From Stentor roeselii (Eukaryota; Ciliophora; Heterotrichea; Heterotrichida; Stentoridae), in contig RSEH01000052.1 in NCBI GenBank assembly GCA_006503475.1, positions 62,001-126,000 of the forward strand: a stretch of DNA of 64,000 nucleotides, written 5' to 3'. The stretch's first letter is position 1; each line of letters opens with the position of its first letter. The notes under the pieces were generated by a model. It made no database searches, had not been told where the DNA came from, and was given only the letters and a program-made list of their open reading frames with translations. Below are positions 9,042 through 52,500 of the stretch, piece after piece. A program made the position numbers and the translations under genes.

Positions 9042-9113
9042 GGGTTGATGGTGTAGTGGTATCACATCTGCTTCGCATGCAGAAGGCCCCGGGTTCAATC
9101 CCCGGTCAATCCA
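9042..9113 (+). tRNA. tRNA-Ala (anticodon CGC)
   Basis: 72 nt fold into a full cloverleaf. The acceptor GGGTTGA pairs with TCAATCC including G3:U70, the alanine identity element, with discriminator A. The D-arm is GTG/CAC, the anticodon stem TCTGC/GCAGA holds loop TTCGCAT with anticodon CGC at 9073-9075, and the T-arm is CCGGG-TTCAATC-CCCGG. Internal A-box TGGTGTAGTGG and B-box GGTTCAATCCC are intact. No intron; CCA is not encoded in full. It lies in the 117 bp between two convergent protein genes. Confidence 0.96.
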
Positions 9114-18869: not shown

Positions 18870-20554
18870 TTAACTTATTAATTTAGCTTTAAGTGCCATC
18901 AACTTTTCTTTACAAAACTTGACCTCTTCCTTCAAACTTTTATTTTCCTGTGTCTTCAAAGCGAGTTGAGCCTGCAGTTCAGTGATCAAACTTTCCTGAT
19001 CTAAAATAAGCTGGAGCCATTCAGGATGTGGCAAAGGTACCCCTTCTTTCTTAAGCAATTGACTTCCAATATCCAGCGAGCATCGATCAGAAGGTCTAAA
19101 CATTTCCAAATGTTGTTTACATTCAAAAGGACTCAAGCTTCCAACAGAAGGTTCTTCAGGAATGGAAAGTCTAAAGTCAGACATCCTCGGATAAGGGTTG
19201 GGCAAAGAGTCTTCTTCTTCCACCTCTTCAAGTGAAGAGTTCCTCAAAGTCGAGTTGCTTTCTCGCCAGTACCTCAGGCGAAGACTCCGCCTGTCAGAGA
19301 AGTCAAGCAAGTCTTCATCGGGCTGAGACTGTAATTTGGAATCGCGAATCATTTCAGAGACGAGAATCGCCGTTTGAAGACTTTCGAGCTGAATCTCGAG
19401 ACTCGCCTTTTCTTCCTCGTCTTGCTCGGAAATACTTGATTTTAAAGAGTTGATGCCAGAGATTCCTTCAAGTTTTTCTTTTAGAACGGCCATGTCGGAC
19501 TTGAACTTGTAAAGATATGAAACTTCTCCGGTTCCTGGGTTTTTTGATAGGGTTTGGAGAATACCTTGTGCTTTTTTTATCAGGCTTAAAGTGTTTATAG
19601 ACTCGTCTAGGTGATCGGAGGTTGGGTTTAGGGTTGCTAGGAAGATCACCTTGGCTTGGCCCATTAAGGATGGACCTAAAATACGAGTTAGTTTCGAGTC
19701 ACGCAGGGGAATGTGGCTTGAAGAGTCATCACTTAATTTCATCAAAACAGTATTCAAAGTCAACAAACTCTACTTGAAACTTACCTTATTAATGCATTTC
19801 GACTCCTGACTCCACTCCCCCACAAGTTTCTCACTTTCACTTCCAGCCAGATCAAAAAGACTAACAACTCCAAAGTCAATATTTTCACAATTGCTCCTTA
19901 GTCTACTTTCAATAAGAATTTTGAATCTGTTTAATTATACATGCAATGTGATCTTGAGCTTTTTTGATTGAAGTTCGTTGAAGAGACCTGTTTATGCGAG
20001 TCTCCAATTTTCAATATAGCAAAAATTTGCTCAGCAGTTCTACAAACCTCTTCAGTGAGTCCAACAATGACAGCTCCTCGCTGATTAAGACTTACGCTTT
20101 TATCATCCCTAAGCGGAAGGTTGCAATTCAAAGGATTAAGCAAGTCATTAATGCACTCATTGTAGACTTCACAATAAGAACATCGCATCAAGAACTCTTT
20201 TTCAGGAGTGTCTTCGATATAAGAGAAAATCGTTTGAATTGTCAGAGGAATTATCCCTGGAGCCTTTTTCTTGCCGCACATGGTGAAAGTCTTTCCACTT
20301 CCAGTTTGACCGTAACAAATGATGCTTACGTTGAAACCTTCCATCGCTTTCCATACCCGGCTTTCGCACATCTCGTCGAAGATCCTTTGAGTTGTTGAGT
20401 TCATTCCGTAAACTTTGTCGAATTCAAAGGTTTTCTCGTTTTTCAGACAGGTCAGGGATGAAAAGGAACGAGGGTCCCAGGTTATTTGGTTTGGGTTCTC
20501 GAATGAAAGCACTGGACGGAGACGGACAGCGACACTTAGGTATTCATTAGACAT
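18870..20554 (-). CDS. Kinesin motor protein, N-terminal motor
   Basis: Three exons (a 14-nt and a 15-nt intron) give 551 residues. The motor domain fills about 1-345: P-loop GQTGSGKT at 83-90, switch I SSRSH, switch II DLAGSE, then INKSLLTL and the neck-proximal LDESINTLSLIKKAQGI. A Ser/acidic linker and a short coiled coil (about 500-551) follow. The tail is short for a cargo kinesin. The motor looks most like the kinesin-7 (CENP-E)/kinesin-5 branch, but the subfamily is not certain. It should move along or regulate microtubules of the cortex, cilia or spindle. It starts 16 bp after the SPF30 stop. Confidence 0.9.
19770..19784 (-). other. 15-nt intron (kinesin gene)
   Basis: GTAAGTTTCAAGTAG; joins CINK to SLLTL, a conserved kinesin helix. 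A at position 10. Confidence 0.92.
19927..19940 (-). other. 14-nt intron (kinesin gene)
   Basis: GTATAATTAAACAG. The flanking protein is fixed by kinesin conservation (SSRSHC-IF-KILIESR), and only removal of exactly 14 nt gives it. A at position 10; the branch-to-AG spacing is one base shorter than in the 15-nt introns. Confidence 0.85.
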
Positions 20555-20570
20555 TTATTCGAATATTTTA

Positions 20571-21491
20571 TTAAAGACAAGGATCCTGGTCTTCTACTAG
20601 GTCCTTCACATCCCTCTTATCATGATCTTTTGTCATTCCTTTGCCACTACCAACAACTCCTATTTTCCCATCAAAAACCTCAGGACATCGAAACATGCTA
20701 TTTTTTTTAACATTTCCTGTTTTCTGAAAGTTTTTCCAACTGCTAGTATAAAACTTAGTCTCTTTTTCAGTTTGACTATTTTTCCAAGCAGTCCTCAAGG
20801 CCTTGATTTTTTTCTTTTTTTTAATCCTGACATTTTCAGGGTCATTCGGCAAAATTTTGAGTTTATCAGGAATAACAAAAACTTCTTTTTCAAGTAAAGG
20901 TTTATTTTCTTCCTGAACAAGTCTAAGAGCATCCAAAGAAACCATTTGTTTCTGCCCCCATCTTGCAATTTTTACTAAAACATTATCTTCATGAACATCT
21001 TCAACAGCTGCAAAGTGCCATTTCCCATCATCCAATAATACTTCCACATCAAGTCCTTCACTAATTTGATTCCTTTTAAGAGGTTTCAATATCGAGATAT
21101 AAGAAGCAGGCAGTAAATGTTTTTCATGAAAGCCAAAAAAAGTGACTTCAGCTGTTTGTTCATTTAAATTGACAGAGTTTATTTCTCCCGGGTACCATTT
21201 CGAGTCTTTTTCATAGTAAAGGTTGCACTTCTTGCCGATGTCCTCTGTTTTAAGTTTTACCGACGTGAAGAACTTTTCAATGTTATTTGACGAGACAGTG
21301 AGTAGTTCCTGCTGAATACTAATAGCTTTTTCAATATCATTCAACAGTTTCTTCAATTCCTTTTCCCTTAAAATTTTCGAGTCTTCATCTTGTGTCCTAG
21401 TCTCATTTTTCTGCAACGCTTGAATAACTTTAACTCGATTTTCTTTATATTCTTCAAGTTTTGCAGAGATTTCTCGAACAGTAGGCTCCAT
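20571..21491 (-). CDS. SMNDC1: Survival-motor-neuron-related splicing factor SPF30 (SMNDC1)
   Basis: The 306-residue protein has an N-terminal coiled coil (5-60), a Tudor domain at about 84-138 (KCNLYYEKDSKWYPGEI, VTFFGFHEKHLLP), a second Tudor-like segment (about 145-195), a basic KKKKK region and a conserved tail with SSWKNFQ and KKNSMFRCPE. That order is typical of SPF30, which binds symmetrically dimethylated Sm proteins and helps form the mature spliceosome. An active factor fits a genome with very short introns. A second Tudor-like repeat is less usual and could be checked. Confidence 0.85.
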   Translation of the reverse strand: MEPTVREISAKLEEYKENRVKVIQALQKNETRTQDEDSKILREKELKKLLNDIEKAISIQQELLTVSSNNIEKFFTSVKLKTEDIGKKCNLYYEKDSKWYPGEINSVNLNEQTAEVTFFGFHEKHLLPASYISILKPLKRNQISEGLDVEVLLDDGKWHFAAVEDVHEDNVLVKIARWGQKQMVSLDALRLVQEENKPLLEKEVFVIPDKLKILPNDPENVRIKKKKKIKALRTAWKNSQTEKETKFYTSSWKNFQKTGNVKKNSMFRCPEVFDGKIGVVGSGKGMTKDHDKRDVKDLVEDQDPCL

Positions 21492-49590: not shown

Positions 49591-52500
49591 TTAAAACATT
49601 TCATCGCTGTCGACTGACTCGCTTATCACTTCTTCTGATATAAAATTTTCATCTTCGTAGTTTTCTTCTGATGATTCGAGTTTTGGATTTGATGGGGCTT
49701 CTGGGATTTTTAATTTTGGAGTATTTGAACGACTTGAATGATTTGAATGGCTTGAATGGCTTGAACTGCTTGAACTGCTTGAACTACTTGAACTCTTTTT
49801 GGATTGGGCTGGCAGGAATGGTAATGGATTTGGTGAGGGTTTGCTTTTTGATGATGATTTTTTGGAACTTTTGGAAGTATTGGATTTTTTTTGGGTTGGA
49901 TCGAAGGTTAATGGATTTGTAGGCTTGGAGGAGCTTTTTGAGGAGGAACTGCTTGAGATTTTGGAAACAATCTTCATAGGCTCAAGCTTTGGAAGTTCAC
50001 GATTCTCAAAACTAGAAGAACTTTTCGAGCTATATTTTTTTTCTAATTTTTCAGGAAAACCATATTGATTCTTATCTTCCTTCTTTTTCTCACTACTGAA
50101 TTCAGATTTTTCATAATAATTTTTTTCAATTTCCACCTCCTCATTCCTAAATCCCTTTTCTTGTTCACTTTCATCAAATTCCGAATATTCCTGTTCATTC
50201 AAGTCATAACTCTCAACTTTTTTAATTTTTTCAGAACTCTTCGGAGTTTTATTCCTTTTCGAAGAATTGCTTTTAGAACTACCAGAATATTTATAATTTG
50301 AATTATTTTTCTCATTTTCATCGACATCAAAATTCTTTTTTAAATTTTCATCAAGAAGTTTCTTTTCACTTGAAGAAGATTCTGAGGAAGACTCTGAGGA
50401 AGACTCTGAAGATTTTGAGTTTTTATCATTTGCCACAAATTTAGATTCTCGGCTTTGCTCAGTTATAACTGGAGGAAGGCTAAAGACTTGGGGCGGAGAA
50501 TGTAATACTGGAGGGGCTGAATATTCTGAAAAAGGCGAAAAATTTAAGTTGTTTGAATTTGGAGAAGAATTCAAGTTCGTATGGGATGGCACTGGCTGCA
50601 TCTTGGCTTGGGGAACTAGCTTTGAATCACTTGGAAATTCTCCAGGAGTTTGGAATGAAAAGGCACTTGATGGGTTACTTAACTGGGGTAAAGTTGGGAA
50701 TGCATCTCTTAGTGAGTAACTGACTGTGTTTGATGGGTCTTTATTTTCGAACTTTGCTGTTGGATCACTTGTAGAATCAGCTTTACTTTGAGGTTCTGGA
50801 AAGTCCTCCTTAAAAACTAGAGGTATTTTAGGATTTTTAGCCTTTGATGAGGATTTACTCGAACTTGAACTAGAATGCTTATATGGATTTTCAATCACTT
50901 TTTCAGATTCTTCAGAACTTGAGCTCGGATACTTGTAGGGTTGCTTTTCGGCTATTCCTGATTTTTTAGAAGACTTTTCAGATAATTTCGAAGATTTTTT
51001 AGACTTTTTAGAAGATTTTTCTGATTTTTCATAATTTTTAGAAGATTTTTCAGATATTTCAGAAATTTTTTTAGATTTTTCTGATTTCTCATAATCTTTA
51101 GAAGATTTTTCAGATGATATCGAAGACTTTTTAGACTTTTCTGAAGATATTTTTAGCTTTTCTGAAGATTTTTTAGACTTTTTTGAAGATTTTTCAGATA
51201 TTTTTGAAGACTTTACAGAAATTTTTGAAGACTTTACAGAAGATTTAATTGATGATTTTTCACTAAGACTAGAACTGGTGTTAAAATCTCTCTGTTTTTC
51301 CTTTTCTTTTCCAAGAGTGAAAGTATTTTCAGCAACATGTTGAGAGCTACTTTCATAACTATCATCTTCATAATCATCCTTAGGTTCATCAACTAGATTT
51401 TGTAAGTTTTTTTCAGATTTCTTCCGAGTCATAGGAATTTGTTCAGAAATCGAGCTTTCAAATTTTTCTTCATATTCATCTTCCTTCTGAGCACTTTTCA
51501 AAGACTCTTTATCTTCTTCATATTCCGAGGTGCTTGAAACAATTTCAAAAGTTTTAACTTTCGTCATCGAACTTTGATAAAAATTTTCACTTGTAGGAGG
51601 TTTACTAGAAAAATTGTCATTTTTACTAGAAATCATCTCTTTTTCCTCCTTTTTCTTAATTTTTTCATTTTCAGAACTTTCTGAGCTCGAATCTTTTATT
51701 TTCAAAGATTTTTTTTCAGTCCTCAAGTCCTTCAAGTTCATCGGCTGATTTTTTTTCCTGCTTCCAAAAGACGAAGAAGATTCATGCGGGGTATGTTTAA
51801 GTATATCTTGAATGCTATCTGAAGAGCTGTCTTTTTTCTTATCAGGCTGATGTTCAATCTTGCTGATAGCGAGGGTGAACTTAGAGCTAGCATCATTTTC
51901 CTTAGTCTCTTTAAGTGCAGTCTTTCCTGAATTCGAGCTGGGTTTTTTCACATGTTGATTAGAAATACTAGCAAAAGGTGAAATTTCGCTGATTTTCTGT
52001 CTTCCTGGAGAGTCTTCTGAGTAGTCTAAATTAGCTGATTCCGATATAGAAATTTTCTTAATTTCTTCACTGACTTCATCAGAAGAGCTACGTTTTCGTC
52101 TTTTCGGTGAATTTGCGACTCCTAAATTATTCATGATTTTTTCAAACTCGTCAATAAAAATGCAAGCCTCATTTTCCTTATCATACTGAAGAGCTTCTAA
52201 GATAAGCACTAAAAAATCATGTTCAATGTTTTTCAATCCAAGGTTTTCAAGGCCAGTGATGAAGCTTTCAGGGTAAATCAGTTTGTTTTCAACTTGAAAG
52301 ACTTCCCTAACACTTTGCTTCTGCTTCTTAAGAGACTGGGCGATTTCTTGAAGATAGTGTTTCACGATCTGTGCCTTTTCAGATTCAGAGTACTCCTGAC
52401 TTTCTTCAGTGTTTTGCTCGCCGTAGGCTCGAATGAAGTGAATGTAAGGGACTTTGTCAAGTTCGTATTCATGTGAGTAAAAAAGAAGAGTCATGTACTG

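Follow-up and report, generated by a model that had tools for sequence, protein, structure and literature searches.

A probable 14-nucleotide intron in a kinesin gene and a putative minor class of such introns in the same genome

Introduction

How short a spliceosomal intron can become is an open mechanical question, as its branch A and both of its splice sites have to share one active site. The literature searched, represented here and below by excerpts of the papers cited, gives 15 nt as the reported floor. Heterotrich introns are about 95% 15 bp long, and the rest are 16 bp (PMC11441545). Stentor coeruleus has 8806 annotated introns, of which 92.81% measure 15 nt and 7.19% measure 16 nt; the branch A lies at position 10 in the former and at position 11 in the latter, which leaves a constant tail of 5 nt (PMC9505925). 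The introns of Blepharisma stoltei are likewise tiny, predominantly 15 and 16 bp (PMC9942806). Very narrow length classes at the short extreme are also reported for mikrocytids (16–17 nt; PMC10245619) and the Bigelowiella nucleomorph (18–21 nt), but these introns are longer and belong to unrelated lineages with reduced genomes. None of these excerpts on tiny introns describes a 14-nt spliceosomal intron; a published length histogram may hold such a class. In the one paper found to mention heterotrichs, introns and 14 nt together, the figure refers to the distance of a motif from the telomeres (PMC10449743).

The subject of this work is a 14-nt GT-AG element in a kinesin gene, located in a 64,000-nt stretch of DNA that was analysed as a whole (the window). 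The initial annotation had read it as a spliceosomal intron, shorter than the 15–16 nt known from heterotrichs, and the lengths reported for S. coeruleus and Blepharisma agree with the latter remark. The element falls one base below the floor and outside the heterotrich range, and the homologous introns of its paralogs are 15 nt long. With a probability of roughly 0.85, it is a genuine spliceosomal intron, derived from a 15-nt intron by loss of one base, and a member of a minor 14-nt class. This reading draws on its position, the restoration of the frame, protein homology, the 15-nt intron of a paralog, recurrence elsewhere in the genome and the lack of 13- and 16-nt counterparts in a matched test.

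Like the introns of S. coeruleus, as described in the excerpts, those of the present genome are of GT-AG type, AT-rich and nearly constant in length, have an almost invariant A near the 3' end and occur together with the standard genetic code. Unlike in S. coeruleus, a length of 14 nt is present, and no 16-nt intron was found among the 17 of 17 class sites examined. B. stoltei reads UGA as tryptophan (PMC9942806), which separates it from this genome: opening TGA lengthened none of the seven longest reading frames in the window, and the kinesin matches, at least 122, contain no TGA. The standard code and the 15-nt introns are consistent with a heterotrich host.

The kinesin gene and its probable 14-nt intron

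The features of the locus are collected in Table 1. Kinesin exons 1 and 2 do not share a reading frame, and without splicing the frame runs into a TAA within the 14-nt element. Excision of this element and of the second, 15-nt intron yields a 551-residue kinesin that reads NFNQKSSRSHC|IFKILIESRLR across the first junction.

Table 1. Positions of the kinesin gene, its introns and further features. Positions are those of the window unless another locus is named.
Feature	Position	Strand	Remarks
Gene order	from 23949 downwards	minus	actin-family gene; gene with three FUZ/MON1/HPS1 longin domains; 306-aa gene; kinesin (start 20554)
306-aa gene	20571-21491	minus	16 bases upstream of the kinesin start
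Kinesin exon 1	19941..20554	minus	start codon to SSRSHC plus two bases of a split Ile codon
14-nt GT-AG intron GTATAATTAAACAG	19940-19927	minus	phase 2, at the SSRSHC/IFKILIESR border; plus-strand letters CTGTTTAATTATAC
Kinesin exon 2	19785..19926	minus	FKILIESR to ESKCINK
Second kinesin intron, 15 nt, GTAAGTTTCAAGTAG	19770..19784	minus	phase 0, A at position 10
Kinesin exon 3	18870..19769	minus	SLLTLN to stop codon
14-nt intron of C239a, GTAAGTTTAAGTAG			at EDKR|NGIKI
14-nt intron of C239b, GTAAGTTTAAGTAG			at SSRSHS|IFRV
14-nt intron of C506	33530-33543 (C506)		in a DEAH helicase gene
Frame-based 15-nt intron candidates	5865, 15739	plus	GTAA...A10...AG type; start or low coordinate
Frame-based 15-nt intron candidates	1040, 18491, 28287, 41214, 43866	minus	GTAA...A10...AG type; start or low coordinate
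tRNA-Ala	9042-9113	plus	anticodon CGC

The identification of the intron depends on kinesin homology and on a paralogous intron at the same codon. Among solved structures (PDB), the spliced motor domain is nearest to CENP-E (phmmer, E 2.5e-55), to which the stretch TNFNQKSSRSHC|IFKILIESR aligns without a gap at the 14-nt junction. The Pfam Kinesin model covers residues 38-320 of the spliced protein with 291.9 bits; on single pieces, it scores 176 bits for the reading frame of exon 1 and 48.7 bits for most of exon 3. The frame demands an intron of the length class 2 mod 3. The paralog C22, 42% identical to the window kinesin over the first 360 residues, carries introns at the same two codons and in the same phases, both of 15 nt. 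The annotated 14-nt intron is thus backed by homology, by this paralogous intron and by further 14-nt introns in the genome.

Frame bridging alone is weak evidence for an intron of this length. A scan of a 238-kb set for strict GT-AG candidates that bridge frames gave 33 candidates at 15 nt and one to six at each of the lengths 10, 11, 13, 14, 16 and 17; the 15-nt class is visible in such a scan, and the 14-nt class is lost in the noise. For this reason, homology and matched patterns were used for the 14-nt length. Two window candidates, at 52473 (13 or 16 nt) and 8354 (13 nt), were rejected, as their translations look non-coding by eye.

Paralogous kinesin introns

With the spliced motor domain as query, 129 matches were listed, and 124 of 157 first-look candidates were scored. 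As read here, the group around the window kinesin has seven members: the window gene itself (C371), C22, C512, C499, C45 and the tandem pair C239a and C239b. These genes contain 17 introns, 14 of them 15 nt and three 14 nt long, the latter in the window gene, C239a and C239b. All remaining group members with an intron at those positions have one of 15 nt (3/3 and 4/4).

In a tree without the distant row C95, the genes C499, C45, C239a and C239b split from C371, C22 and C512 with a support of 100/99 (SH-aLRT/bootstrap); inclusion of C95 left the tree without any supported fork. Given their separation in the former tree, C371 and C239b seem to have shortened their SSRSH introns independently. 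One apparent homologous intron, GTAAGACTTAAACAG on the plus strand of locus L033, was rejected, because it belongs to an adjoining gene and the kinesin there lies on the minus strand. The kinesin family as a whole is unusually large, with at least 122 motor matches above the cut-off in a 44-Mb genome.

Genome-wide comparison of intron lengths

One sequence class was compared at four lengths, GTAAG followed by two, three, four or five W and AANYAG (13, 14, 15 and 16 nt). Sites were evaluated with flanks of 200 nt, and a site passed when its removal joined open frames while both unspliced frames closed (Table 2). The 15-nt sample was picked along the first 100 listed sites. Both C239 sites belong to the 52 sites of 14 nt, lie outside the 50 tested and were read separately.

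Table 2. Sites of the sequence class and numbers passing at three minimum lengths of open frame on each side.
Length	Sites	Reversed-pattern control	Evaluated	Passing, >=60 codons	Passing, >=30 codons	Passing, >=15 codons
13 nt	67	172	50/67	0/50	0/50	8/50
14 nt	52	106	50/52	4/50	7/50	15/50
15 nt	273	53	20/273	11/20	14/20	17/20
16 nt	17	47	17/17	0/17	0/17	3/17

Most of the 50 fetched 14-nt sites are not introns. The 14-nt length nevertheless stands out from the pooled 13- and 16-nt sites, with p 0.03 at 60 codons and 0.002 at 30 codons, and in the tested class none of the evaluated 13-nt and 16-nt sites passes at 30 codons or more. Short flanks prove little, since the 13- and 16-nt controls are not empty at 15 codons.

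Pfam was run on the 15 fetched 14-nt sites flanked on both sides by 15 or more open codons (5 + 10). At C1, a Serinc domain spans the junction (E 1.6e-20), and at C94, where the upstream open flank has just 26 codons, a VPS9 domain does so (E 1.4e-19). The peptide of C506, which was searched against PDB as well, belongs to a DEAH helicase whose GKST and DEAH motifs are intact, and it aligns to Prp43 through the junction LGEE|VGYSIRFE (phmmer, E 1.1e-35); in Pfam, it has only AAA matches below the cut-off. C59 and C85 have long open frames and no Pfam match, and the ten weaker sites gave no Pfam match either. Three of the seven sites passing at 30 codons (C16, C32 and C282) are without a Pfam match, which counts against the 14-nt class. 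The control peptides were searched in Pfam only, where nothing was found for any of the peptides entered, 8/8 at 13 nt and 2/3 at 16 nt. As a separate observation, the host gene of the C506 intron is, among solved structures, most like Prp43, a member of a splicing factor family.

The search for further 14-nt introns that the initial annotation had proposed thus supports 7 of the 52 class sites, five by homology (C1, C94, C506 and two kinesins) and two by frame only. Beside about 190 introns of 15 nt (273 x 14/20), this amounts, as a rough estimate, to a 14-nt share of about 4% in the tested class. The GTAAGTTTAANYAG class has 14 sites, seven of which are supported as 14-nt introns; its 15-nt analogue GTAAGTTTTAANYAG has 81 sites (control 5). 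A site in C18 (32274-32287, minus strand), GTAAGTTTAAACAG, is identical to the Serinc intron of C1 and was rejected, as it sits in an unbroken reading frame. A 14-mer by itself therefore cannot decide splicing. In the tested sequence class, the genome appears to carry a minor class of 14-nt introns and no detected class of 16 nt, and from these sequence comparisons we infer that the 14-nt introns are removed by RNA splicing.

Branch point and place of the lost base

A profile of 15-nt introns was built from 29 sequences, namely 18 of 20 scan candidates (two overlapping alternatives were dropped; most of the 18 are frame-based) and 11 kinesin introns. It has A at position 10 in 28 of 29, C or T at position 9 in 23 and C or T at position 13 in 27. 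A 15-nt class with an almost invariant A10 is thus present in the same genome, in line with its 273 sites against 53 in the reversed control. Position 4 is A in 27 of the 29 local 15-nt introns and T in the window intron, a difference that counts against the latter.

The 14-nt introns would arise from 15-nt introns by loss of one base and would keep a GT donor, a putative branch A at position 9 or 10 and the terminal AG. The initial annotation had noted the A at position 10, which is indeed there; its placement of the missing base between the branch A and AG is not established, as positions 9, 10 and 11 of the window intron are all A. The C239 introns have A at 9 and 10. If the constant 5-nt tail of S. 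coeruleus (PMC9505925) applies, A9 is the predicted branch point, with a ring of 9 nt. The 15-nt profile shows a weak preference, 5.0 and 3.3 to 1, for a deletion 5' of the branch.

Sites with only one of the two A residues gave nothing convincing: flanks reached at most 17 codons for the A9-only pattern (10/10 sites fetched) and 27 codons for the A10-only pattern (10/12 fetched). In comparisons picked after the data had been seen, A9A10 sites are supported more often (7/14) than A9-only and A10-only sites (p 0.01), and sites with TTT before AA (7/14) more often than those with other triplets (0/38; p 3e-5, 52 sites). Either a TTAA context is a requirement of 14-nt introns, or loss of a T from GTAAGTTTTAA is their main origin; TTAA is present in the window intron too.

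Alternative explanations

An assembly or sequencing error that removed one base from an ordinary 15-nt intron, perhaps from a T or A run, is an unlikely source of the 14-nt length. It is suggested by the fact that many supported 14-nt sites equal GTAAGTTTTAA minus one T, as a slip in a homopolymer would produce. Against it stand 30 kinesin motor loci, whose 29,145 nt include 499 A/T runs of at least four bases, extrapolated to about 2,060 runs in the 124 scored candidates; these loci are the best-scoring ones, so that the comparison is biased towards intact genes, and the error was given more weight on this account. Among the matches listed, coordinate arithmetic finds frame-shifted split pairs only at introns (C371 and C239a; the second exon of C239b is absent from these matches), and five other split pairs are in frame (C35, C112, C153, C92 and C4). 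Within the seven-gene group, the 252 intron nt contain three 1-nt changes and the 7,560 nt of coding sequence none (p 3e-5); this comparison carries the same bias. An error would hardly account for a loss in about 7 of 88 that is restricted to introns; relaxed constraint on a sequence that splicing removes would fit it.

There is only a slight chance that splicing of the shortened intron has been lost, with the genes being recent pseudogenes or unproductive copies. The spliced window protein retains what we take to be the P-loop, SSRSH and DLAGSE motifs, all intact. Its downstream exons are open, exon 3 over 900 nt, and the 14-nt length recurs in unrelated genes, including the helicase with its intact motifs. 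The doubt comes from Arabidopsis, where, according to an excerpt of the study, RT-PCR did not confirm predicted introns of 30 bp or less and many of the genes concerned were judged probable pseudogenes (PMC6161759); this counts against splicing at 14 nt.

That the frames are joined otherwise can practically be dismissed: the one other nearby GT-AG option of the right frame class found by eye, of 35 nt, would delete the conserved FKILIES, which is matched in CENP-E and the paralogs, a programmed ribosomal frameshift leaves the GT-AG ends unexplained, and paralogs carry GT-AG introns at the same codon.

Significance of the 14-nt length

A spliceosomal 14-nt intron would presumably work like the 15-nt introns. 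A broader proposal, which we consider probable with somewhat less assurance than the reading of the window intron itself, is that 14 nt is a regular minor class that replaces here the 16-nt class of S. coeruleus. By extrapolation, it may comprise hundreds of introns genome-wide, with a lariat ring of 9–10 nt, a tail of 4–5 nt and perhaps only TTAA branch regions. Such introns would be smaller than any spliceosomal intron so far reported from a eukaryote. A recurrent 14-nt class, matched by 15-nt introns at the same codons, would represent a new form of the heterotrich tiny intron, and B. stoltei may have a minor class of this kind as well.

The 14-nt introns and the 15-nt introns of paralogs at the same codons form matched pairs within one cell, and the absence of detectable 13- and 16-nt counterparts makes a length ruler directly testable. 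Gene predictors restricted to introns of 15–16 nt would truncate such genes.

Neighbouring features

The gene next to the kinesin start encodes 306 amino acids and, by eye, may resemble a Tudor-type splicing factor. No family scored above the cut-off for it, the best being a MORC2 chromo-like model with 21.9 bits (cut-off 27), and a PDB search gave no match. Elsewhere, the window holds a tRNA-Ala gene and seven further frame-based candidates for 15-nt introns (Table 1).
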